Assembly (NCBI GenBank): GCA_001303705.1
Contig: LJUI01000109.1
Location: 1-9,497 of the forward strand
From: a candidate division TA06 bacterium SM23_40
GTDB lineage: Bacteria > LJUI01 > SM1-40
Direction of reading: 5' to 3'
DNA: 9,497 nucleotides
In this document: positions 1 through 9,429 of the stretch, piece by piece
Layout of the letters: each line of letters begins with the position of its first letter
Position numbering within the stretch: position 1 is the stretch's first letter
Position numbers and translations under genes: made by a program
The notes under the pieces: generated by a model
The model's input: the letters and a program-made list of their open reading frames with translations, nothing else
What the model was told of the DNA's origin: nothing
Database searches by the model: none

Positions 1-1098
1 GCCCTCGAGGGCTATCGCGTCACGATCTTCGAGGCGCTTCCGGTTGCCGGCGGTATGCTCGCGACTGGGATCCCGGACTATCGGTTGCCGAAGGATATCC
101 TGAACTACGATATCGATCTCATCAAGAAAGTGGGCGTCGAGATCAGGACGAACACGGCGGTAGGACGGGACGTGCAAATCGCTGATCTAAGGCAACAGTA
201 CAAGGCCGTCTTCGTCGCCACGGGGGCTCATAAGGGACTGAAGCTGAGAATCGAGGGCGAGGAGTCTCCCCAGGTGATGGATGCGGTCGAGTTCTTACGT
301 GCGATCAACCTTGGGCAAGAGGTCGAGATCGGACAGAAGGTGGCTGTGATCGGCGGTGGGGATGCCGCGGTCGATGCAGCGCGAGTCGCCAGGCGTCTGG
401 GCAAGGATGTCAAGGTACTGTATAGGCGAACAAGAGGGGAGATGCCCGCGGCGCAGGAGGAGATCGAAGAGCTGGACCGGGAAGGAATCGAACTTCAGTT
501 GCTGGTCGCCCCGGTCAAGGTGCTATCGGACAATGGGACGCTGAGGGGCATCGAATGCGTGAGGATGAAGTTGGGCGATTTCGACCAGAGTGGCAGGAGG
601 CGGCCGGTTCCGATTGAGGGATCGGAGTTCACGGTCGAGATCGACACCTTGATCCCGGCGATCGGCCAGGAGCCTGACGTGATGTGTGTAGCAGGGGAAG
701 GCGGACTTCAGCTCTCCCGCTGGAACACCATCGAAGTCAATCCAGAGACGTTGTACGCCGGAATGGAGGGAGTCTTCGCCGGCGGCGACGTGGTCACGGG
801 ACCATCCACGGTCGTGCAAGCAATGGCTCATGGAAAGACCGTCGCCCGAATGATACAGAGACACATCGAGGGACGGCCAGTGCAGAGGGAGTACAGCGTG
901 ACACGGCCGGTGATGGACGTCGACGCGGTCGAACTCAGCGACGCTGAGGTGGCGAAACTGCATAAGCCGGCAATGCCAGAGCTACCGGTGGTGGAACGGG
1001 AAGGCAGCTTCAGGGAAGTGCAGTTGGGCTTCACTGAGGAGATGGCGGTGGCGGAAGCGAGGCGCTGTGTCAGGTGTGACAAAGAGGCCAGGGGATGA
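1..1098 (+). CDS. GltD/NfnB-like FAD- and NAD(P)-dependent oxidoreductase, 5' truncated
   Basis: The frame is open from base 1, so the gene begins upstream; the ATG at 55 is internal. The 365 visible residues start at the end of the first FAD-binding Rossmann unit (VTIFEALPVAGGM). They continue through a GIPDYRLP motif, a second dinucleotide fold (VIGGGDAAVDAA, about residues 115-127), YRRTRGEMPA (about 141-150) and the C-terminal FAD motif GGDVVTGPSTVVQAMAHG (about 261-278). They end with RCVRC (Cys356, Cys359). This is the layout of the glutamate synthase small-subunit/NfnB family, which moves electrons between NAD(P)H, FAD and iron-sulfur partners. The part before base 1 could carry a ferredoxin or NuoF-like domain, which cannot be seen. 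Neighbouring hydrogenase and Hdr genes argue for electron transfer with an Hdr/hydrogenase complex rather than for glutamate synthesis; that is inference. The stop TGA is directly followed by the next ATG. Confidence 0.9.
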   Translation, partial: ALEGYRVTIFEALPVAGGMLATGIPDYRLPKDILNYDIDLIKKVGVEIRTNTAVGRDVQIADLRQQYKAVFVATGAHKGLKLRIEGEESPQVMDAVEFLRAINLGQEVEIGQKVAVIGGGDAAVDAARVARRLGKDVKVLYRRTRGEMPAAQEEIEELDREGIELQLLVAPVKVLSDNGTLRGIECVRMKLGDFDQSGRRRPVPIEGSEFTVEIDTLIPAIGQEPDVMCVAGEGGLQLSRWNTIEVNPETLYAGMEGVFAGGDVVTGPSTVVQAMAHGKTVARMIQRHIEGRPVQREYSVTRPVMDVDAVELSDAEVAKLHKPAMPELPVVEREGSFREVQLGFTEEMAVAEARRCVRCDKEARG

Positions 1099-1530
1099 AT
1101 GGAGAGGATAGTGACTACGGAACGTGTAGTGACAGGTGAGACATCGGTCGGTTCTGAGGTTGGTGCTGAGAAGATGACGCTAGAAGAGGTGAGGGATATC
1201 CTCGGCGCGGAAGTGCTGGCGGGGGCACACCTGCTGTCGCTAGAGGTGAGCATGGGCTGTGGGGCGGACCTGATGAGCGATGTGCTCGCCTACGGTAAGC
1301 CGGGTTCGCTTCTGCTGACAGGGTTGACCAACCAGCAGGTAGTGCGCACGGCGGAGATGGCGGACATCGTGGCCATTTGCTTTGTCCGGGGCAAGAGGCC
1401 GGATGAGGAGACCGTCGAGATGGCGAAAAGACAGGAGTTGCCCCTGTTGTGGACCAGGCTGCCGATGTTTGAGAGCTGCGGCCGTTTGTACAGGCGTGGA
1501 CTCATTGGGGTGTCTGAGTCGACGGACTAG
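1099..1530 (+). CDS. DRTGG-domain protein (copy 1)
   Basis: This 143-residue protein resembles the DRTGG domain found in Pta-like and CBS-linked regulatory proteins and as stand-alone genes beside hydrogenases. The core runs from about residue 26 to 137, with GADLMSDVLAYG (55-66), an ICFVRGKRPDEETVEMA stretch (93-109) and LPMFESCGRLY (121-131). The literal DRTGG motif is absent. No catalytic residues are evident, and a ligand-binding or regulatory role is inferred. The ATG at 1099 abuts the preceding TGA and has AGGGG four bases upstream. A second in-frame ATG at 1174 would put the SDLMSDV-type motif at residues 31-37, exactly where it lies in the paralogue at 2457-2801. The first 25 residues (rich in T, V, E, G) may therefore be untranslated or a non-conserved extension. 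The family call is fairly sure; the start is not. Confidence 0.8.
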   Translation: MERIVTTERVVTGETSVGSEVGAEKMTLEEVRDILGAEVLAGAHLLSLEVSMGCGADLMSDVLAYGKPGSLLLTGLTNQQVVRTAEMADIVAICFVRGKRPDEETVEMAKRQELPLLWTRLPMFESCGRLYRRGLIGVSESTD

Positions 1531-1548
1531 CAGCGGTGGTGCAGGATA

Positions 1549-2460
1549 ATGCCGTTCACCAGGGTTCAGGAGCTGGTCTATGAGATGAAGGTCAGCCAGG
1601 TGATGAGCCGGAGCGTCATCACCGTTCGACCGCAGATGCCGATGAGCGAGCTGAGGGAGATCTTCCGCGACAAGCGGATCTCGGGAACCCCCGTGGTGGA
1701 TGGGGATCGGCTGGTGGGCATCATCAGTCTCGAGGACTTCATCAAGTGGCTCTATGATAGGGAAGGGGACTCGCTGATCGAGAATAAAATGACGAGGAAC
1801 GTCGAGACTCTTTACGATGACGAGCCGCTAGTGCACGCGGTCAGCAAATTCGAGACATCGGGTTTTGGGCGATTCGCGGTGGTCGAGCGGCGGAGCGGCA
1901 AGCTGGTGGGTGTGATCACCAAGGGCGATATCGTTGAGGGGCTGCTGAAGAAGTTGGAGATCGACTATCACGAGGAGGAGATACATCGGTACCGCGCCAG
2001 TCACATCTTCGAAGACATCGTGGCCGACAGGACCACGCTGGCATTCGAGTATGACGTCGTCGGGCGTGATTTCGAGCGAGCCGGGGAAAGCTCAAGTCGA
2101 CTGAAGCGCACGTTGAAACGTCTCGGCTTGGACCCCGGGGTGGTCCGCCGTGTGGCGATAGCCACTTACGAGGCGGAGATGAACCTCATCGTGTTCACAG
2201 AGGGGGGAAGGATCTCGGTCAGGCTCGAGCCAGGGCGGATAACCGTGCATGTGACGGATTCGGGCCCGGGAATCCCCGACGTCGAGAAAGCCCTTCAACC
2301 CGGGTACTCGACGGCCCCGCAGTGGGTGAGAGAGCTCGGCTTCGGTGCCGGGATGGGCCTGGTCAATATGCAAAAGTGTGCGGACGAGATGGAGATCATC
2401 TCGGCCCCGGGCAAAGGCACCCAGATCAAAATCGCGATCCTGACGGGGAGGAAAAGGTGA
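1549..2460 (+). CDS. CBS-domain pair fused to RsbW-like ATPase (anti-sigma/serine kinase type)
   Basis: This 303-residue protein has two CBS domains at about residues 15-70 (VMSRSVITVRP, then GTPVVDGDRLVGIISLEDF) and 79-135 (NKMTRNVETLYDDEPL, then KLVGVITKGDIVEGL). A GHKL ATPase domain follows at about 165-300. The ATPase motifs are an N-box around YEAEMNLIVF (207-216), a G1 box DSGPGI (237-242) and a glycine-rich G2 lid GFGAGMGL (264-271). The absence of an H-box and the compact N-box resemble RsbW/SpoIIAB anti-sigma kinases more than sensor histidine kinases. CBS pairs commonly bind AMP, ATP or related nucleotides, so an adenylate-gated kinase is a reasonable inference; no substrate or sigma factor is visible here. 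The start at 1549 has AGGA only two bases upstream. An in-frame ATG at 1585 would still leave both CBS domains almost intact. The end overlaps the next gene by four bases (GTGA). Confidence 0.85.
   Translation: MPFTRVQELVYEMKVSQVMSRSVITVRPQMPMSELREIFRDKRISGTPVVDGDRLVGIISLEDFIKWLYDREGDSLIENKMTRNVETLYDDEPLVHAVSKFETSGFGRFAVVERRSGKLVGVITKGDIVEGLLKKLEIDYHEEEIHRYRASHIFEDIVADRTTLAFEYDVVGRDFERAGESSSRLKRTLKRLGLDPGVVRRVAIATYEAEMNLIVFTEGGRISVRLEPGRITVHVTDSGPGIPDVEKALQPGYSTAPQWVRELGFGAGMGLVNMQKCADEMEIISAPGKGTQIKIAILTGRKR
2445..2451 (+). promoter_or_regulatory. Ribosome binding site fixing a GTG start at 2457
   Basis: The purine run GGGGAGG lies five bases before GTG 2457, inside the end of the CBS-ATPase gene. 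It supports the GTG as the start of the second DRTGG gene rather than the far-upstream in-frame ATG at 2322, which lies inside the ATPase coding region. The GTGA stop/start overlap suggests translational coupling. Confidence 0.75.
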
Positions 2461-2801
2461 GGCTGGCCGAAATAGTCGAGAAGCTCGGTCTCGCGGTCCG
2501 AACCGCGAGCGGGCATTTGGATACGGAGGTCACTGCAGGATACGCAAGCGATTTGATGAGCGATGTGATCGCCCACGCCAAGAAGGGAAACCTCTGGGTC
2601 ACACTGCAGATCCATCAGAACATCGTTGCAGTGGCCAGCATGAATGAGCTCGCCGGAATCGTGCTGGTGAACGGAAGAGAGCCGGAGGCAGAGACTATCG
2701 AGAAGGCGGAGAGCGAAGGTATACCGATCATGGTGACGCCACTGCCTACGTTTGAAGTGGCTGGCAAGCTCTATGAGTTGGGGATCGGCGGGATCCCCTA
2801 G
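2457..2801 (+). CDS. DRTGG-domain protein (copy 2)
   Basis: This 114-residue protein (starting VRLAEIVEKLGL) is a diverged paralogue of the product at 1099-1530. The two align with no gap through YASDLMSDVIAHAKKG (29-44), an IVLVNGREPEAETIEKA stretch and LPTFEVAGKLYELGI near the C-terminus. It has no cysteines, transmembrane segment or recognisable catalytic motif, and the literal DRTGG sequence is absent here too. Stand-alone DRTGG proteins of this size sit in hydrogenase operons next to PHP and ATPase genes. Their function is not established to my knowledge; small-molecule binding is the usual guess. The start is the GTG that overlaps the upstream TGA, backed by a strong ribosome binding site. 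Two DRTGG copies flanking the CBS-ATPase gene suggest that the three products act together, which is inference. Confidence 0.85.
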   Translation: MRLAEIVEKLGLAVRTASGHLDTEVTAGYASDLMSDVIAHAKKGNLWVTLQIHQNIVAVASMNELAGIVLVNGREPEAETIEKAESEGIPIMVTPLPTFEVAGKLYELGIGGIP

Positions 2802-2827
2802 CAAAGCCGGGTGCCACGCGGGGCGAC

Positions 2828-3547
2828 GTGATGAGGCAGCTGCGAGCGGACCTGCACTTGCACACCTGCCTTTCACCCTGCGCTGAGCTCGAGATGGTGC
2901 CGACGGCGATCGTGAAGCAGGCGAAATGTATAGGCTTAGATGCTATCGCGATATGTGACCACAACTCGGCCGAGAACGTCGGTGCTGTGCTGCGAGCTGG
3001 GCAGAGGGAGAGCCTCACCATCATACCCGGAATGGAGGTCACCACTCGTGAGGAGGTGCACATTCTCGGTCTCTTCGCTGATGAGGGACAGGTAATGCGC
3101 CTTCAAGACCGCGTGTACGAGAACTTGGCGGGCGAGAATGATCCGGATGTTTTCGGGTTCCAGGTGGTCGTTGACGAGTGCGATAACGTTGTGGACTGCA
3201 CCACGAAGCTTTTGATCGGTGCGACGAGTTTCTCGCTGGAAGAGACCGTGAGAGTGATCCATGACTGTGGAGGCTTGGCCATCGCAGCTCATATCGACCG
3301 CGAGCGGTTCGGCCTCGTCGGACAGCTCGGCTTCATCCCCGAGGGGCTTCCACTGGACGGTGTGGAGCTGTCGCCGTACGCGTCATTCGACAGCTGGGGG
3401 GATCTCCCGGTGGTGAGGTCCTCTGACGCCCACTCGTTGAATGACATCGGCAAGACCTCTACGTGCTTTCGCGTCGCGGAGGTAACGCTCAGCGAGATTG
3501 CGATGGCGCTCAGGGGCGAGCACGGTCGGCTGGTAGTACGTGGATAG
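2828..3547 (+). CDS. PHP-domain metal-dependent phosphoesterase
   Basis: This 239-residue single-domain PHP protein appears to keep every canonical metal-ligand motif. These are DLHLHT (His10, His12), CDHN (Asp44, His45), PGMEVTT (Glu70), EVHILG (His78), AAHID (His155) and SSDAH (Asp200, His202). PHP domains bind two or three divalent metals and hydrolyse phosphoesters of nucleotides, nucleic acids or small molecules; the substrate here cannot be told from the sequence. The HTCLSPCAE stretch places two cysteines next to the first metal motif, as in the PHP proteins I know from hydrogenase-linked cassettes. Translation can begin at GTG 2828 or at the adjacent ATG 2831; the upstream purine content is weak for both. 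The stop TAG is directly followed by the ATG of the next gene, so the two are probably translated together. Confidence 0.88.
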   Translation: MMRQLRADLHLHTCLSPCAELEMVPTAIVKQAKCIGLDAIAICDHNSAENVGAVLRAGQRESLTIIPGMEVTTREEVHILGLFADEGQVMRLQDRVYENLAGENDPDVFGFQVVVDECDNVVDCTTKLLIGATSFSLEETVRVIHDCGGLAIAAHIDRERFGLVGQLGFIPEGLPLDGVELSPYASFDSWGDLPVVRSSDAHSLNDIGKTSTCFRVAEVTLSEIAMALRGEHGRLVVRG

Positions 3548-4012
3548 ATGGAGGATCTCGCGCTTCATGTCTTGGACATAGCAGAGAACTCGCTGGCTTC
3601 GTCGGCGCAGCGCGTTGAGATTCTCATCGTCGAGGACACGACAGAGGACCTGCTGGTAATCGAGATCAGGGACGACGGCGCGGGAATGGATCCGGAGACT
3701 CGGGAAAGAGTCCTTGATCCTTTCTTCACGACGAAGAGGACACGGCAAGTCGGCTTGGGCATTCCGTTGCTGGCACAGGCCGCGCGAGAGAGCGAGGGAC
3801 AGTTCGAGATCGTATCTGAGCCAGGGAAGGGAACGACGGTCAGGGCCACGTTCCGTCACAGTCATCCGGACCGCAAGCCTTTGGGAGATATGTTGGAGAC
3901 GATACGCACGCTGATGGCGGGAAGGCCGGAATTGCAGCTCCGATACGAGCACAGGACAGACGACGCTGTGTATCGGTTTGACACGCTAGATACGGAGCGA
4001 GACGAGGGCTGA
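3548..4012 (+). CDS. GHKL ATP-binding protein without histidine phospho-acceptor domain
   Basis: This 154-residue protein is a nearly bare histidine-kinase-type ATPase domain. The N-box is at DIAENSLASSA (10-20), the G1 box DDGAGM at 42-47, the F-box DPFFTTKR at 57-64, and the G2 box GLGIPL at 69-74, with PGKGTTV closing the fold at 92-98. There is no H-box or dimerisation helix before it and no sensor or membrane segment. It therefore cannot autophosphorylate on histidine in the usual way, and may act on a partner protein or as an ATP-dependent switch. After the fold come about 45 residues (PLGDMLETIRTLMAGRPEL, then YEHRTDDAVYRFDT). I associate this tail with small ATP-binding proteins encoded in clostridial hydrogenase operons. 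The ATG follows the PHP stop with no gap. The response regulator at 8066 is a possible partner, but nothing in the sequence shows it. Confidence 0.85.
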   Translation: MEDLALHVLDIAENSLASSAQRVEILIVEDTTEDLLVIEIRDDGAGMDPETRERVLDPFFTTKRTRQVGLGIPLLAQAARESEGQFEIVSEPGKGTTVRATFRHSHPDRKPLGDMLETIRTLMAGRPELQLRYEHRTDDAVYRFDTLDTERDEG

Positions 4013-4064: not shown

Positions 4065-7000
4065 ATGGTGAGACTGACGATTAACGGGATCGAGGTCGAG
4101 GTCGAGAAGGGATCGACGGTCATCGAGGCTGCGGAGAAGCTCGGCATCAAGATCCCCACTCTCTGTCATCACAAGTCCTTGGAGCCTTACGGCGCTTGCC
4201 GTGTGTGTCTTGTGGAATTGGAGACGCCGCGGGGCTCGAAGATCGAGGCGTCTTGCGTCTATCCGGCGCAGGAGGGCCTCGTCGTCAAGACCGACACGGA
4301 AAGGGTGCTCAAAACTCGCCGGATGATGGTCGAGTTATTGCTTGCGCGCTGTCCGGATGCAGTGGCGCTGAAGCAGCTCGCGAGCAGTCTGGGACTCGAG
4401 GACACTCGTTTCCCGAAGAAGAACGAGGACTGCATCCTCTGCGGACTGTGCGCCAGGGTGTGTCAGGAACGAATGGGCGTTGGCGCTGTCACTTTCCTCA
4501 ACCGCGGTGCAGACCGGAAGATCTCGACTCCTTATGACAAGCACTCTCCCATCTGTATGGCCTGCGGTGCCTGTCAAGTCGTCTGTCCGGTTGACGTAGT
4601 CGATCTATCCAAGGTCACCCTGAGGGAACCCAGGCCGATACTCGCTGACTACGATGCGGGCCTGGCACCGCGATCTTCCATCTATGTACCGTTCCCTCAG
4701 GCGATACCGAAGGTGGCGACGATCGACCCCCATACCTGCATGCACCTGCTCAACGACGTATGCAGGTCGTGTGAGAACTTCTGCGACGCTGGGGCGATTG
4801 ACTTCGACCAGGAGGATCAGACCGAAGAGATCGACGTTGGTGCGGTTATCCTGGCCCCAGGATTCGAGCAATTCAATCCTGAGCTCAAGAAGGAATTCGG
4901 CTACGGCAGATACCCGAACGTCATATCGAGCCTGCAGTTCGAGCGCATCCTCTCCGCCAGCGGGCCGTATGTTGGGAAGGTGCTCAGGCCATCTGACCTG
5001 AAGCATCCCAACAGGATCGCGTGGATCCAGTGCGTCGGATCGCGAGAGGTAGACAGGAACTACTGTTCCTCGGTCTGCTGCATGTACGCCACGAAAGAGG
5101 CTGTGATTGCCAAGGAGCACGAGCCAGACCTCGAATGCACGATCTTCTACATCGACATGCGTGCATACGGCAAGGGGTTCGATGCGTACTACAATCGTGC
5201 CAAGGAGTTGGGCGTCAGGTACGTGCGTTGTTCGCCCTCGTCGATCAAGGAAGTCGCCGAAAACAACAACTTGAAGATCACCTATCAGGGGGAGGATGGC
5301 GAGCGCGTCACGGAAGAGTTTGACATGGTCGTGCTTTCCACCGGTCTTGGGCCTCCTCAGGACGCGCATGACCTGGTGCGGATGTATGGCATTGACCTCA
5401 ATCAGCACGGTTTCGCGGCCACACAAGGCCTCGCTCCCGTCGAGACGTCACGACCTGGGGTCTATGTTTGTGGCCCATTCGCTGGGCCTAAGGACATCCC
5501 GGAGACGGTGATGGAGGCCTCGGCTAGTGCCTCCAAGGCGATGGCGCTTCTGGCAGAGGCACGAGGCTCGTTGATCAGAGGCAAGGAGTATCCGCCCGAA
5601 AAGGACGTGACGGGCCAGGAACCGCGTATCGGTGTGTTTGTCTGCCACTGTGGCAAGAATATCGGCGGAGTCGCCGATGTGCCGTCGGTGGTCGAGTATG
5701 CGAGGACACTGCCCGACGTCGTCTACGCAGAGGACAATCTCTATACCTGCTCGACGGACACTCAGGAGGGGATCAAGCAGATGATCGCGGAGCACGACCT
5801 CAACCGTGTGGTTGTGGCGTCGTGCAGCCCGAGGACCCATGAGCCTCTCTTCCGCAACACCTGTCGGGAGGCGGGTCTCAACGAGTACCTGTTCGAGATG
5901 GCGAATATCCGCGATCAGTGCACGTGGGTGCACATGCGTGAGCCCGAGAAGGCAACCCAGAAGTCGAAGGACCTACTGCGGATGGCGGTGGCTAAGGCGA
6001 GGACTCTGGAACCCCTGCACAAGAGCAGCCTGAAAGTGAACAACGCAGCCCTTGTGATCGGCGGAGGCATGGCGGGCATGACGGCCGCTCTCAACCTCGC
6101 CGACCAGGGGTTCCAGGTGCATCTGGTTGAGAAAGAGGAAGAACTGGGAGGGAACTTCAGGCACATCCACAGCCTGCTTAACGGCGGAAATCCTCAGCAG
6201 ACACTGACTCAGACTATCGAGAGGATCGAGTTTCATCCGCGGATAACCGTCTATGTGGGAAGCACGCTGTCGGAGGTTGAGGGGTCGGTGGGGAATTTCA
6301 CGTCCACGATCTCGCGTAACGGCACGCAGAAGCGGGTGGGGCACGGTGTGGCTATCGTCGCCACGGGCGCGACGGAATACGAACCGACCGAATACCTCTA
6401 CGGAGAGCATCCGCGGGTGCTGACACAGGTTACCCTGGAGGAGTGGATCTCCAGCAACAGGGTGGAGCTGCAGGAGCTGAAATCGGTTGTCATGATTCAG
6501 TGTGTCGGCTCGCGAGACGAGGAACGGCCCTACTGCAGCCGAGTCTGTTGTTCGCAAGCGGTGAAGAACGCGCTCGCCCTCAAGAAGTTGCGTCCGGACA
6601 TGGCCGTAACCGTACTCTATCGTGACATCAGGACGTACGGCTTGTACGAACAGTACTACAGAGAGGCTAGGGAAAGGGGCGTCCGCTTCATCCGCTACGA
6701 GGAGGATCGGAAACCTCGGGTATCCTCGAGCGATGGTGGGCTGCGTGTCTCCACTCTGGACCCGGTTCTGAATGCTACCGTTCACATAGACTGTGACATG
6801 GTGGTTTTGGCTGCTGCCATTGTGCCCAGGGGCGATACCGAGGAAGTGAGCAAGCTGTTCAAGGTAGCCCTTAATCAGGATAGATACTTCCTCGAGGCGC
6901 ACATGAAGTTGCGACCGGTGGACTTCGCTACGGACGGTGTCTTCATGTGCGGCCTGGCTCACTGTCCCAAGTCGGTGGAGGAGAGTATCGCTCAGGCGGA

Positions 7001-7310
7001 CGCCGCCGCTGCCAGGGCGGCTACCCTCCTCTCGAAGGACGAGATCGCGCTGGAGGCGACCATATCCGAGGTGGTGGATGAGAACTGCGACGGGTGCGCC
7101 TACTGCATCGATCCTTGCCCGTACAACGCGCTGTCGCTGATCGAATACATGTATGAAGGGAGTATCAAGAAGGGCATAGAACGAGATGCAGCGCTCTGTA
7201 AGGGCTGCGGCGTTTGTCAGGCAACATGCCCCAAGAAGGGCATATACATCCGCAGCTTCAGGCTGGAGCAGTTGAGCGCGATGGTAGACGCTGCTTTGGA
7301 GGTAGCCTAA
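4065..7310 (+). CDS. hdrA: Tandem HdrA-like electron-bifurcating flavoprotein with NuoG-like N-terminus
   Basis: This 1081-residue protein begins with a NuoG/HndD-like 2Fe-2S domain (Cys34, 45, 48, 64). Two 4Fe-4S motifs follow, CILCGLCARVC (123-133) and CMACGACQVVCP (164-175). An HdrA-like half (about 205-500) has a Cys225/233/236/240 cluster, IQCVGSR (321-327), YCSSVCC (333-339) and a GVYVCG FAD-end motif, but no GxGxxG Rossmann motif. A second half from about 520 is nearer to full HdrA. It has the N-domain RIGVFVCHCGKNIGG, LYTCS and ASCSPRTHEP, the FAD motif VIGGGMAGMTAAL (664-676), IQCVGSR (811-817), YCSRVCC (823-829), and two C-terminal ferredoxin motifs (Cys1008-1018 and Cys1045-1055). 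HdrA carries the FAD that splits electron pairs between ferredoxin and a second acceptor. The following mvhD and [NiFe] hydrogenase genes fit that role. The start has AGGG eight bases upstream, after a 52-base gap. Confidence 0.93.
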   Translation: MVRLTINGIEVEVEKGSTVIEAAEKLGIKIPTLCHHKSLEPYGACRVCLVELETPRGSKIEASCVYPAQEGLVVKTDTERVLKTRRMMVELLLARCPDAVALKQLASSLGLEDTRFPKKNEDCILCGLCARVCQERMGVGAVTFLNRGADRKISTPYDKHSPICMACGACQVVCPVDVVDLSKVTLREPRPILADYDAGLAPRSSIYVPFPQAIPKVATIDPHTCMHLLNDVCRSCENFCDAGAIDFDQEDQTEEIDVGAVILAPGFEQFNPELKKEFGYGRYPNVISSLQFERILSASGPYVGKVLRPSDLKHPNRIAWIQCVGSREVDRNYCSSVCCMYATKEAVIAKEHEPDLECTIFYIDMRAYGKGFDAYYNRAKELGVRYVRCSPSSIKEVAENNNLKITYQGEDGERVTEEFDMVVLSTGLGPPQDAHDLVRMYGIDLNQHGFAATQGLAPVETSRPGVYVCGPFAGPKDIPETVMEASASASKAMALLAEARGSLIRGKEYPPEKDVTGQEPRIGVFVCHCGKNIGGVADVPSVVEYARTLPDVVYAEDNLYTCSTDTQEGIKQMIAEHDLNRVVVASCSPRTHEPLFRNTCREAGLNEYLFEMANIRDQCTWVHMREPEKATQKSKDLLRMAVAKARTLEPLHKSSLKVNNAALVIGGGMAGMTAALNLADQGFQVHLVEKEEELGGNFRHIHSLLNGGNPQQTLTQTIERIEFHPRITVYVGSTLSEVEGSVGNFTSTISRNGTQKRVGHGVAIVATGATEYEPTEYLYGEHPRVLTQVTLEEWISSNRVELQELKSVVMIQCVGSRDEERPYCSRVCCSQAVKNALALKKLRPDMAVTVLYRDIRTYGLYEQYYREARERGVRFIRYEEDRKPRVSSSDGGLRVSTLDPVLNATVHIDCDMVVLAAAIVPRGDTEEVSKLFKVALNQDRYFLEAHMKLRPVDFATDGVFMCGLAHCPKSVEESIAQADAAAARAATLLSKDEIALEATISEVVDENCDGCAYCIDPCPYNALSLIEYMYEGSIKKGIERDAALCKGCGVCQATCPKKGIYIRSFRLEQLSAMVDAALEVA

Positions 7311-7328: not shown

Positions 7329-7745
7329 ATGGCGAACGAGGAACTCGAACCGATCATCATCGCCTTCTGCTGTAACTGGTGTTCGTACGCAGGGGCCGAT
7401 CTTGCAGGTGTGTCCCGAGTTCAATATCCTACGAATCTGCGGATCATCCGGGTCATGTGCTCCGGGATGGTGCATCCGAACCTGGTCATCGACGCGCTCA
7501 CGAAAGGCGCCGATGGCGTCTTGATTTTGGGCTGTCATCCCGGAGATTGTCATTACCTCGAAGGCAATTTAAGAGCGGAGGGCCGAAAGGAAGCCATCGA
7601 GCTCATGCTGGAGGATTTCGGCGTGGAGCCCGAGCGATTCAGACTGGAATGGGTGTCGGCGTCCGAGGGTCCGAGGTTCGCCGAGGTGGTTCGGGAGATG
7701 ACCGAGACTGTTCGTGAGCTCGGCCCCAGCCCCTATAAGGCCTGA
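7329..7745 (+). CDS. mvhD: MvhD/FlpD-family hydrogenase-Hdr linker, 2Fe-2S protein
   Basis: This 138-residue protein matches the MvhD family, whose 2Fe-2S cluster passes electrons from the [NiFe] hydrogenase (or a formate dehydrogenase) to HdrA. The diagnostic cysteines are present: FCCNWCSY (Cys14, 15, 18), VMCSGMV (Cys44) and LGCHPGDCHY (Cys69, Cys74). The length is typical of a free-standing MvhD, so it is not fused to HdrA as in some HdrA2 types. It begins 18 bases after hdrA and has AAAGGA 11 bases upstream of its ATG. Its place right after hdrA and before the hydrogenase genes supports an HdrA-MvhD-hydrogenase assembly in the cytoplasm. Confidence 0.95.
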   Translation: MANEELEPIIIAFCCNWCSYAGADLAGVSRVQYPTNLRIIRVMCSGMVHPNLVIDALTKGADGVLILGCHPGDCHYLEGNLRAEGRKEAIELMLEDFGVEPERFRLEWVSASEGPRFAEVVREMTETVRELGPSPYKA

Positions 7746-7810: not shown

Positions 7811-8008
7811 ATGCCAGAGAGAGTGCGGTATTTCGAGGGCAAGAAATACTTCTGGGACGGGGAACAGTACGACAGGGAGGAGAGCGCCAGGGCGAAGGAG
7901 AAGGAATACCGAGGCAAGAGTTTCGATGTGCGCGTCTGGCCGGAGGAGGGTACAGTGCTCCTCTACACGCGGAGGGTCGTTAAGGAGGTGGTAGTCGAGG
8001 GAGGTTGA
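7811..8008 (+). CDS. Small charged protein of unknown function
   Basis: This 65-residue ORF is not one I recognise. It is rich in Glu, Lys and Arg, has no cysteine, and shows no membrane segment or signal peptide. It has several aromatic residues near the N-terminus (RYFEGKKYFWDGEQY). A central charged helix-like stretch (REESARAKEKEYRGK) is followed by an alternating, probably beta-strand tail (VLLYTRRVVKEVVVEG). The start ATG has AAAGGA eight bases upstream, and the gene sits in a 65-base gap after mvhD and 57 bases before the response regulator, on the operon strand. Size and composition would suit a small accessory or subunit-bridging protein, but that is a guess. A longer overlapping frame covering 7714-7983 has a less convincing composition and was not chosen. 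Confidence 0.7.
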   Translation: MPERVRYFEGKKYFWDGEQYDREESARAKEKEYRGKSFDVRVWPEEGTVLLYTRRVVKEVVVEGG

Positions 8009-8065: not shown

Positions 8066-8476
8066 ATGAGTAGAGCTCGGATACTAGTCATCGATGATGA
8101 TCCGGATTTCGTGGACGCCACGAAAGCGATCCTCGAGACGGGACAGTACGAGGTGAGCTGCGCTTACAACGAGGACGAGGGGCTGAAACGCTTGGAGGAA
8201 GAGATCCCCGACCTCATCATCTTAGACATCATGATGAGGAGGTTCGCCGAAGGCTTTACCTTCGCACGGGGGATCAGGAAGGATCCACGCTACCAGAGGA
8301 TACCCATCATCGTAGCGACATCGGTACGTGAACAGACGGGGTTCGATTTCCCGGGCGACCCCAAACACCCGAAGTTTTTCCCCATAGACGAATTCATGGA
8401 GAAGCCTCTCGAACCGCAGCTTCTCTTAGAGACAGTCGAGCGGCTACTTGCCGAGAAAGCCGACGATCCTGTGTAG
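8066..8476 (+). CDS. Stand-alone response-regulator receiver protein
   Basis: This 136-residue CheY-like receiver has no output domain. It has the acidic triad ILVIDDDPD (Asp10-12), phospho-acceptor Asp54 in IILDIMM, the conserved Thr/Ser at IIVATS (Thr85) and the lysine at MEKPL (Lys113). The stretch GFDFPGDPKHPKFFP (92-106) lies between the TS motif and the lysine motif and is longer than in CheY. The start has GAGG three bases upstream. It would receive a phosphoryl group from a histidine kinase, but the only kinase-like ATPases in the window (1549-2460 and 3548-4012) lack a histidine phospho-donor domain. Its place between mvhD and the hydrogenase genes suggests a role in controlling the hydrogenase complex by protein contact. 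That is inference. Confidence 0.9.
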   Translation: MSRARILVIDDDPDFVDATKAILETGQYEVSCAYNEDEGLKRLEEEIPDLIILDIMMRRFAEGFTFARGIRKDPRYQRIPIIVATSVREQTGFDFPGDPKHPKFFPIDEFMEKPLEPQLLLETVERLLAEKADDPV

Positions 8477-8510: not shown

Positions 8511-9429
8511 ATGCCAGTAAAAGTGGCAGAAGAGTGGCTGAACATCTGTGGAGGATGTGAGGTCACGATCCTGGCTCGACTTTGTCCATATGCCCGTGTT
8601 GATGGACCACAAGTACTACGGGCAGACGGGGGAAGGAGAAAAGCTCGAAATCCCCGAGGCGGATGTGGGGATCATCTCCGGAGGTGTCAGGAACGAGAAG
8701 GAGAAGCATGTCACCGAGGAGATGAGGAAGAAGTGCGGCACGCTGATTGCCCTCGGTTCATGTGCGTGCTACGGAGGGATCCCCGCCCTCGCGAACATGT
8801 TCCCTCTGGAGGCCCTGTATCAGAAGGTGTACAGGGAGTCGAAGACGACGGAGCCCGGCGACACTCCTGCGGAGAACATCCCGCCGCTGCTGGACAGGGT
8901 GTACGGCGTCGATGAGATCGTCCCCGTGGATGTCTACATTCCAGGCTGTCCCACAAACCCCGATCTTATTGTCAAGGCACTGACTGCGCTCCTGGAGGGC
9001 AAGTCCTTCAAGCTTCCCGAGCGCAGCGTCTGTGACGAGTGTCCGCTGAAGCGCGAGAAGAAAGCAGCGGGCGGCGCGATCAAGAGGACCCTGGACTCGG
9101 TGGACTTCAAGCTTGGGGAACCCTACGAGCACACAAGGTGCTTCATGGAGCAGGGGTACCTGTGCCTGGGGCCCGTGACTCTGGCAGGCTGTGGCCACAA
9201 GGAGGGAGATAACGGTGTGACCGTCCCGCGTTGTATCAAGGGGCATATGCCGTGTCGTGGGTGTTTCGGTCCGATCCGCAAGGGCGCTAATCCCATGGTC
9301 GACATGATGAGCGCTATCTCATCGATCGGGCTGGACGCCAAGCAGGTAGAGGATAGGCGCGCTCTGTTGAACAGGTACATCGGCGCTCAGAATCGGCTCA
9401 GGCCGCTACCTGAGCGGCCCAAGAGATAG
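8511..9429 (+). CDS. [NiFe] hydrogenase small subunit (MvhG-like), frame broken near 8574
   Basis: Two reading frames together encode one protein. Frame one (8511-8574) gives MPVKVAEEWLNICGGCEV and three more residues, the classic N-terminus with the CxxC pair of the proximal 4Fe-4S cluster. From 8575 another frame continues with LDFVHMPVLMDHKYYGQTG and runs intact to TAG 9427-9429. It contains IALGSCACYGG (8749-8778), IPGCPTNP, CDECP (from 9031) and a cysteine-rich C-terminus (RCFMEQGYLC, AGCGH, MPCRGC) for further 4Fe-4S clusters. The family normally has about a dozen residues (D-x2-E-x-LLDLL type) between CEVTIL and LDFV. These are missing, and the junction needs 3n+2 bases to restore frame. 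A GTG at 8548 could start the second frame but would lack the CxxC. The subunit relays electrons from the NiFe site towards MvhD/HdrA. Either a recent deletion or a sequence/assembly error fits. Confidence 0.85.

Follow-up and report, generated by a model that had tools for sequence, protein, structure and literature searches.

A conserved five-gene ATPase cassette linked to the NADH/ferredoxin core of bifurcating enzymes

What do five small putative signalling genes control when they stand directly upstream of heterodisulfide reductase and [NiFe] hydrogenase genes? The question is raised by the window, the whole 9,497-nucleotide stretch of contig LJUI01000109.1 from candidate division TA06 bacterium SM23_40 that was analysed. 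A sequence-only reading had named five families at 1099-4012 and placed their genes without meaningful gaps before HdrA and MvhD. We found Pfam matches for each of the five ORFs, in the order DRTGG1, CBS2-HAT2, DRTGG2, PHP and HAT1 on the forward strand, and the gaps from GltD to HdrA were 0 (after GltD), 18, -4, 26, 0 and 52 bases, with MvhD following, which confirmed both points.

1..1098, +, GltD-like FAD/NAD domain (Pyr_redox_2 E 4e-26; NCBIfam GltD-type E 1e-105)
1099..1530, +, DRTGG1, stand-alone DRTGG-domain protein of 143 aa (PF07085, 28.5 bits; Pfam cut-off 25.2)
1549..2460, +, CBS2-HAT2, tandem CBS domains fused to a SpoIIAB/RsbW-type ATPase (PF00571 twice, CBS E 3e-28; PF13581/PF02518, HATPase_c E 1e-10)
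2457..2801, +, DRTGG2, 114 aa, GTG start overlapping the preceding stop (PF07085, 31.1 bits; cut-off 25.2)
2828..3547, +, PHP-family phosphoesterase with intact metal ligands and an invariant extra Cys18 (PF02811, E 2.5e-7)
3548..4012, +, HAT1, GHKL/histidine-kinase CA-type ATPase without DHp (PF02518, E 1e-15)
4065..7310, +, HdrA with an N-terminal BfuA/NuoG-like 2Fe-2S/4Fe-4S domain (NF040770 HdrA2, E 3e-260)
7329..7745, +, MvhD/FlpD-type electron transfer subunit (PF02662, E 7e-56)
8066..8476, +, stand-alone CheY-like response regulator (PF00072, E 2e-16)
8511..9429, +, [NiFe] hydrogenase small subunit MvhG/VhuG (NF045875, E 5e-61 for 8548-9429)

The cassette and its proteins

The same gene order, DRTGG1, HAT2 (accompanied at some loci by CBS domains or an [FeFe]-hydrogenase-like, here FeFe-like, protein and at others by neither), DRTGG2, PHP and HAT1, was repeated across phyla. 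Furthermore, a second copy of the cassette, 56-70% identical, lies within a complete locus of the same genome (the C35 copy), together with NuoE, a 2Fe-2S protein, NuoF-GltD, HdrA, MvhD, MvhG, MvhA, HdrC and HdrB. That the genes are chance neighbours of the operon with no joint function could appeal to the third of loci that do not adjoin NuoF, but this reading is refuted by the order conserved across phyla and kept in the second copy, as well as by fusions between members, and we give it practically no weight. Promoter and terminator scans of the window gave signals no more than chance level, and a known structured RNA in the window was rejected after a search. PADLOC returned zero family matches for all five proteins, and an anti-phage defence system was rejected on this ground.

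Both DRTGG proteins exceeded the family cut-off. DRTGG1 keeps D32, S35, T49 and Q55 (domain numbering) in 113 homologues. For DRTGG2 a start at 2322 was rejected in favour of the GTG at 2457, which gives a GTGA overlap. Its AF2 model (pLDDT 96) matched 2IOJ (Z 16.2, r.m.s.d. 1.9 over 112 residues) and the CBS/DRTGG region 3L2B of a CBS-pyrophosphatase (Z 13.8). D32, S35, H53 and N55 were invariant (100%, 129 homologues) and T49 invariant or nearly so, all near predicted strand ends, a pattern that looks more like a ligand pocket in the model than a phosphorelay through His53.

HAT2 has intact N, G1 and G2 boxes (ExxxN, DxGxG and GxGxG) in a HATPase_c_2-type domain (41 bits against PF13581), and E51, E53, N55, D80, G82, G84, G107, G109, G111 and G113 were 99-100% conserved in homologues. 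Its nearest curated family was TIGR01925 spIIAB (E 2.6e-15; 57 bits, below the equivalog cut-off of 135) and its nearest PDB sequence was an anti-sigma F factor (4.5e-8). HAT2 shares ATPase fold and motifs with the SpoIIAB/RsbW partner-switching kinases. Whereas those kinases have a STAS antagonist and sigma factor, neither was recurrent among clustered neighbours within 9 kb at 133 loci, and DRTGG proteins stand in their place. In the PHP protein, the ligands H10, H12, D44, H45, E70, H78, H155, D200 and H202 (HxH, DH, E, H, H, DxH) were 97-100% conserved and C18 was 100% conserved in 133 homologues. HAT1, a CA-type domain alone (154 aa) lacking a HisKA/DHp phosphoacceptor domain, conserves N14, D42, G44, G69 and G71 among homologues, and its AF2 model (pLDDT 88) matched WalK, CckA and MutL. 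A phosphoacceptor histidine domain accompanies neither HAT1 nor HAT2.

Linkage to the NADH/ferredoxin core

A search within the phylum of the window returned only its own genome, the sole one there, and linkage was therefore surveyed in 386 genomes sampled across families; 52 of them had and 334 lacked the cassette PHP protein, whose scores were separated from those of generic PHP proteins by a clean gap. The results revealed bifurcation-type NuoF (BfuB) in 52/52 genomes with the cassette compared to 126/334 without it (Fisher 3e-20), as tallied by hand with a profile built from cassette-adjacent NuoFs. NuoF lay within about 10 kb at 36 of 53 sampled loci (<1 expected); adjacency was found at 60 of 80 named loci and at 19 of the 29 sampled loci with full 8-kb flanks (~0.4 expected). 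About a third of cassette loci were unlinked, and in those genomes NuoF was located elsewhere. Random placement, which the sequence-only reading had named as the outcome that would count against it, was thus not found for the NuoE/NuoF core.

The module for the third substrate was variable. Beside the cassette we found [FeFe], [NiFe], HdrA, formate-dehydrogenase/NuoG-like, Rnf and complex I modules, and on the PHP tree (74 labelled loci, 6 kinds) the module was swapped at least ~22 times. The cassette therefore tracks the NADH/ferredoxin core and not the hydrogenase class. The earlier proposal that it serves bifurcation in general, and not one type of active site, fits this survey with a sharper subject, the NuoE/NuoF (BfuC/BfuB) core, while its emphasis on the [NiFe]-Hdr pairing did not hold, that being one of several partners and not a special one.

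The survey also bears on the explanation that these are hydrogenase-specific accessory genes, beside Hdr genes here by accident. Clostridial examples of cassette genes are known upstream of bifurcating [FeFe] hydrogenases (PMC3561251, PMC3608648), but an H-cluster hydrogenase was nearby at only 14/53 sampled loci and HdrA at 4/53, formate-dehydrogenase/NuoG, Rnf and complex I being common partners. In addition, no Fe_hyd_lg_C ([FeFe]-type) protein was found in the window's own genome (89.8% complete) or in either cassette copy. An [FeFe]-specific accessory role was largely refuted by these results, and we regard the explanation as very improbable.

Of BfuB, the window retains just the GltD tail. 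The gene at 1-1098 is probably the C-terminal GltD part of a BfuB-type NuoF-GltD fusion cut by the contig end; its C35 paralogue is a 1018-aa NuoF-GltD fusion. The C35 copy contains the Bfu core, with a NuoE region in a 391-aa ORF and a match to NuoF model positions 1-541 (E 2.7e-294). The BfuB C-terminal 2x[4Fe-4S] domain is absent from this NuoF, whose match ends at 541/597 and gives way to a GltD domain that bears separate Cys motifs. The window type thus differs from the Bfu (HydABC) family in that GltD replaces the C-terminal ferredoxin domain of BfuB and a BfuA-like domain is joined to HdrA, where residues 2-179 align with the [FeFe] hydrogenase A6 N-terminus (E 1e-37). According to the available excerpts of PMC9304861, HdrA is a separate bifurcating family that is combined with Bfu in Bam complexes, and many of the cassette's third-substrate partners match the Bfu list given there. 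Comparison with the C35 copy also showed that the MvhG frame of the window is lost near 8573.

Interchangeable inputs and related systems

Beside HAT2, CBS domains and a group D (M2e) 'sensory' hydrogenase almost exclude each other: 32 loci had CBS only, 47 an FeFe-like protein only, 4 both and 32 neither (Fisher 7e-7). Roughly one HAT2 locus in four lacks both inputs nearby. Natural fusions joined DRTGG1 to HAT2 (L054, L115), HAT2 to the FeFe-like protein (once), PHP to HAT1 and CBS to HAT2, and at L087, L112 and L149 a complete histidine kinase carried the FeFe-like module. In many cassettes the FeFe-like protein, with two 4Fe-4S, Fe_hyd_lg_C and a C-terminal four-Cys FeS, has the same architecture as the putative sensory [FeFe]-hydrogenase of group D (Tam HydS; Csac_1857, TTE0887), and both are encoded upstream of bifurcating-enzyme genes, next to a gene for a histidine-kinase-like ATPase (PMC8163306, PMC3561251). 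The window cassette differs in having CBS domains in place of the Fe_hyd_lg_C protein with its C-terminal FeS domain, and these group D papers (PMC8163306, PMC3561251) mention neither DRTGG or PHP genes nor partners outside the [FeFe] class. A paper on TM1420-TM1423 points to group D.

HAT1 also has known counterparts. HydE of Acetobacterium woodii and, in the NiFe-Bfu operon of Acetomicrobium mobile, HisK are small histidine-kinase-type ATPases, encoded among the NuoE, 2Fe-2S and NuoF genes, that are not holoenzyme subunits (PMC3315566, PMC9304861); the remaining cassette genes are not covered in those papers. At loci such as L031 and L176, HAT1 takes the place of HydE/HisK, a likeness drawn from description and gene order and not from direct sequence comparison. 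In the literature on DRTGG, PHP and hydrogenases we came across no account that treats the five genes as a single system, and the block as a whole appears undescribed. The sequence-only reading had put it forward as a candidate for an undescribed regulatory system; this appears to stand for the block but not for its parts, since HydE/HisK (HAT1) and the group D (M2e) hydrogenase are known (PMC3315566, PMC9304861, PMC8163306).

A possible control switch for Bfu-type enzymes

Our preferred reading, to which we give about an even chance, is that the cassette is a conserved cytosolic energy/redox-sensing ATPase control switch for Bfu-type (NADH/ferredoxin-coupled) bifurcating enzymes. In its favour we count the co-occurrence and adjacency with NuoF, the exchange of third-substrate modules, the alternative inputs, the fusions, the SpoIIAB likeness of HAT2 and the place of HydE and HisK outside the holoenzymes. 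A sensor would set the state of HAT2, acting as a protein kinase or switch. In the window the sensor would be the tandem CBS domains, reading adenylate charge; other lineages would use the group D [FeFe]-hydrogenase-like Fe-S protein, which would read H2/redox. HAT2 may work with DRTGG1 and DRTGG2 as partners, the latter with its predicted pocket; PHP could strip a phosphoryl group or nucleotide ligand and thereby reset the switch; and HAT1, encoded beside NuoE/NuoF in many loci, might relay the state to the enzyme, its presumed target, through activity or assembly. By analogy with SpoIIAB-like ATPases and CBS-pyrophosphatase, an adenylate-sensing regulatory role is plausible. The DRTGG fold occurs with adenine-nucleotide-binding CBS domains in the regulatory region of that nucleotide-regulated enzyme, and the cassette too has DRTGG and CBS domains; for the pyrophosphatase, PMC11172384 describes inhibition by AMP/ADP and activation by ATP/diadenosine polyphosphates. 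That pyrophosphatase is one polypeptide controlling its own enzyme, whereas the cassette consists of separate proteins with a separate ATPase.

Alternatively, the cassette could serve the construction or repair of the FMN/Fe-S NuoEF core, its two GHKL ATPases working as chaperone-like clamps alongside the DRTGG and PHP proteins. HAT1 adjoins the NuoE and NuoF genes yet its counterparts stay outside the holoenzymes, it is matched by MutL and topoisomerase VI-B as well as by kinases, the cassette follows the core and not the third substrate, and PMC3315566 itself suggests assembly or signalling for HydE. We nevertheless consider this unlikely: CBS domains or a sensory-type hydrogenase as alternative inputs would be odd for a chaperone, a third of cassettes are unlinked, and the 126 sampled genomes with bifurcation-type NuoF and no cassette indicate that it is not generally needed for assembly. 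Less probable still is nucleotide housekeeping, in which PHP and DRTGG2 would act as enzyme and binding partner on a small molecule, such as an adenine nucleotide that is damaged or used as a signal and would be hydrolysed, with the ATPases regulating the pair. The conserved PHP metal site and DRTGG2 residues are consistent with this, as are named PHP relatives that include nucleases and 3',5'-nucleoside bisphosphate phosphatase, but it leaves unexplained the strict NuoEF link and why CBS and FeFe-like inputs replace one another.

The control-switch reading can be widened to a phylum-spanning signalling system for the NADH/ferredoxin core, in which a SpoIIAB-like ATPase, with DRTGG/PHP proteins replacing STAS/PP2C and with plug-in CBS (adenylate charge) or cofactor-bearing hydrogenase-homologue (H2) sensors, would govern many unrelated anaerobic redox enzymes; this we hold to be possible but somewhat doubtful. 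The cassette itself suggests that enzyme control is organised around the NADH/ferredoxin core and not around hydrogen, which would bear on the redox balance of acetogens, syntrophs and uncultured anaerobes. The Tam HydS study asks how its signal is relayed, a PAS domain being absent (PMC8163306), and the cassette names a candidate in HAT2, which is adjacent to the FeFe-like protein, once fused to it, and CBS-bearing where that protein is missing. For work in cultivated relatives, the cassette also yields a short list of deletion targets.

Against the control switch, nothing that could serve as a dedicated output, be it a sigma factor, a STAS protein or a DNA-binding domain, was recurrent in the cassette; the missing phosphoacceptor domain, the unlinked third of loci and the HAT2 loci that lack both inputs also weigh against it. 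The CheY-like response regulator of the window is a possible but unproven output partner. It is not present in the C35 copy of the locus; response regulators were near 26 cassette loci, 34/37 of them on the same strand as the cassette, and this proximity was not taken as proof because they are common genes. In favour of the switch, Rex, the NADH-sensing repressor, was found near 8 cassette loci, on the same strand.

Gene layout and a second copy of the cassette

The window is an entire contig of 9497 bases from a genome that is 89.8% complete. ORF calling was simple and the material consisted of metagenome bins with contig ends. The following genes were found, HAT2 being a SpoIIAB-like ATPase and HAT1 a histidine-kinase-type ATPase without a phosphoacceptor domain.

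1-1098, GltD-like domain, tail only
1099-1530, DRTGG1
1549-2460, CBS2-HAT2
2457-2801, DRTGG2
2828-3547, PHP
3548-4012, HAT1
4065-7310, HdrA
7329-7745, MvhD
7811-8008, 65-aa ORF, no confident family (DUF3592 weak, E 0.06)
8066-8476, stand-alone response regulator, between MvhD and the [NiFe] small subunit
8511 (start ATG), [NiFe] hydrogenase small subunit, 3' of the response regulator

The gaps from GltD to HdrA are, in order, 0, 18, -4, 26, 0 and 52 bases, and this spacing looks as in an operon. Residues 2-179 of HdrA matched the domain that carries the Fe-S wiring in NADH-dependent [FeFe] hydrogenase, and the HdrA N-terminus is a predicted BfuA-like domain fused to HdrA.

A paralogous cassette locus (56-70% identity per cassette protein) was found on another contig of the same genome, C35. 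It starts with an HdrA fragment-NuoE, a 2Fe-2S protein and NuoF-GltD (1018 aa), continues with DRTGG1, CBS2-HAT2, DRTGG2, PHP, HAT1, HdrA, MvhD, MvhG and MvhA, and ends with a protease, HdrC, HdrB, HypA and HypB. Because C35 shows the complete set, the GltD tail at the window start is most likely the C-terminal end of a NuoF-GltD protein. The response regulator at 8066-8476 was absent from the C35 copy. The [NiFe] small-subunit gene of the window starts at ATG 8511 (MPVKVAEEWLNICGGCEVTIL) and loses its frame near 8573 (window 8511-8580), with about 14 residues of the C35 small subunit missing, which points to a disrupted gene or to a misassembly.

Association with the NADH/ferredoxin core

When a PHP profile was searched against 386 genomes, most of which represent separate families, matches of E 1e-60 or better were found in 52, the next appearing only at 1e-21, where generic PHP proteins start. 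A profile built from cassette-linked NuoFs was run on the same genomes, and NuoF at E 1e-230 or better was present in 52/52 cassette genomes versus 126/334 others (Fisher 3e-20; counts copied by hand). The main rival explanation is that the cassette serves assembly of the NADH/ferredoxin core (NuoE and NuoF); Acetobacterium woodii HydE, which is similar to histidine-kinase ATP-binding domains and is not an enzyme component, has been given a possible part in assembly or signalling (PMC3315566). However, the 126 sampled genomes with the same NuoF type lack the cassette, which argues against assembly.

NuoF lay within the fetched stretch at 36 of 53 sampled loci and at 60 of 80 named loci (the best 80 of >584 matches to a window-led query, not a random sample), many stretches ending at contig ends. 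At loci with full 8-kb flanks it was found in 19/29 sampled and 27/32 named, with a chance expectation of ~0.4 of the 29 sampled loci, assuming two NuoF genes per 2.6 Mb.

Beside the cassette and NuoEF we found [FeFe] hydrogenase, [NiFe] hydrogenase, HdrA with or without Mvh, a formate-dehydrogenase/NuoG-like protein, Rnf, complex I and GltD. These labels rest on profile matches and motifs, and the motif missed, for instance, MvhA on C35. An H-cluster hydrogenase occurred at only 14/53 sampled loci and HdrA at 4/53. Six partner kinds at 74 loci required 22 changes on the PHP tree versus 44 in shuffles, the tree being made by a quick method with many weak branches; therefore partner modules have been inherited in part, yet swapped many times. 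No Fe_hyd_lg_C protein was found in the window's genome (89.8% complete). Collectively, the varied partners, the few H-cluster and HdrA loci, the swaps and this Fe_hyd_lg_C-free genome indicated that the cassette belongs to the NADH/ferredoxin core.

Module order and a putative signal path

The core order in most loci was DRTGG1, HAT2, DRTGG2, PHP and HAT1. Often HAT2 was followed by an [FeFe]-hydrogenase-like protein (two 4Fe-4S, Fe_hyd_lg_C, FeS). This protein retained all four Cys predicted to bind the [4Fe-4S] part of the H-cluster as well as all four Cys of the C-terminal cluster, and it agreed with the published group D (M2e) description. Those group D hydrogenases that lie upstream of bifurcating hydrogenases were named sensory owing to nearby kinases (PMC3561251, PMC3608648, PMC8163306). 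A CBS domain on HAT2 and an FeFe-like protein nearby were near-exclusive. Fusions joined CBS to HAT2 (36 loci), DRTGG1 to HAT2 (L054, L115), HAT2 to the FeFe-like protein (L178) and PHP to HAT1 (L041, L049), and at several loci HAT1 was positioned among the NuoE, 2Fe-2S and NuoF genes. Read from adjacency, fusion and fold, a signal may pass from the sensor to HAT2, then to DRTGG, PHP and finally HAT1. We found no treatment of the DRTGG and PHP genes, or of the whole cassette as one unit, in the open-access literature that was searched.

Complete histidine kinases with a group-D-like Fe_hyd_lg_C/FeS module as sensor half were also encountered (L149:845-2902, L087:11563-13500, L112:5944-7986).

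Conserved residues and nearby regulators

HAT2 residues E51, E53, N55, D80, G82, G84, G107, G109, G111 and G113 were 99-100% conserved, and its closest solved sequence was anti-sigma F factor. HAT1 conserved N14, D42, G44, G69 and G71, and its predicted structure (all models being of single chains) was similar to kinase CA domains and MutL. C-terminal to this ATPase domain, an HxDxxPxG motif was conserved at residues 106-113 (window 3863-3886), for which no Pfam family accounts. In DRTGG2, whose fold is shared by AF1212 and by the CBS/DRTGG part of the pyrophosphatase from C. perfringens, D32, S35, H53 and N55 were invariant in 129/129 and follow predicted strands 27-30 and 45-49. Every PHP metal ligand was conserved among homologues. 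In an LSPC motif that directly follows the metal-binding HxH, Cys18 (window 2879-2881) was invariant in 133/133 cassette PHP proteins, and is possibly a redox or metal site.

Response regulators were encoded near 26 cassette loci, almost always on the same strand. A gene for the NADH-sensing repressor Rex lay close to the cassette, and on its strand, at L028, L050, L096, L100, L112, L115, L187 and L190, its identity being confirmed with NCBIfam at two of these eight loci (L028 and L100).
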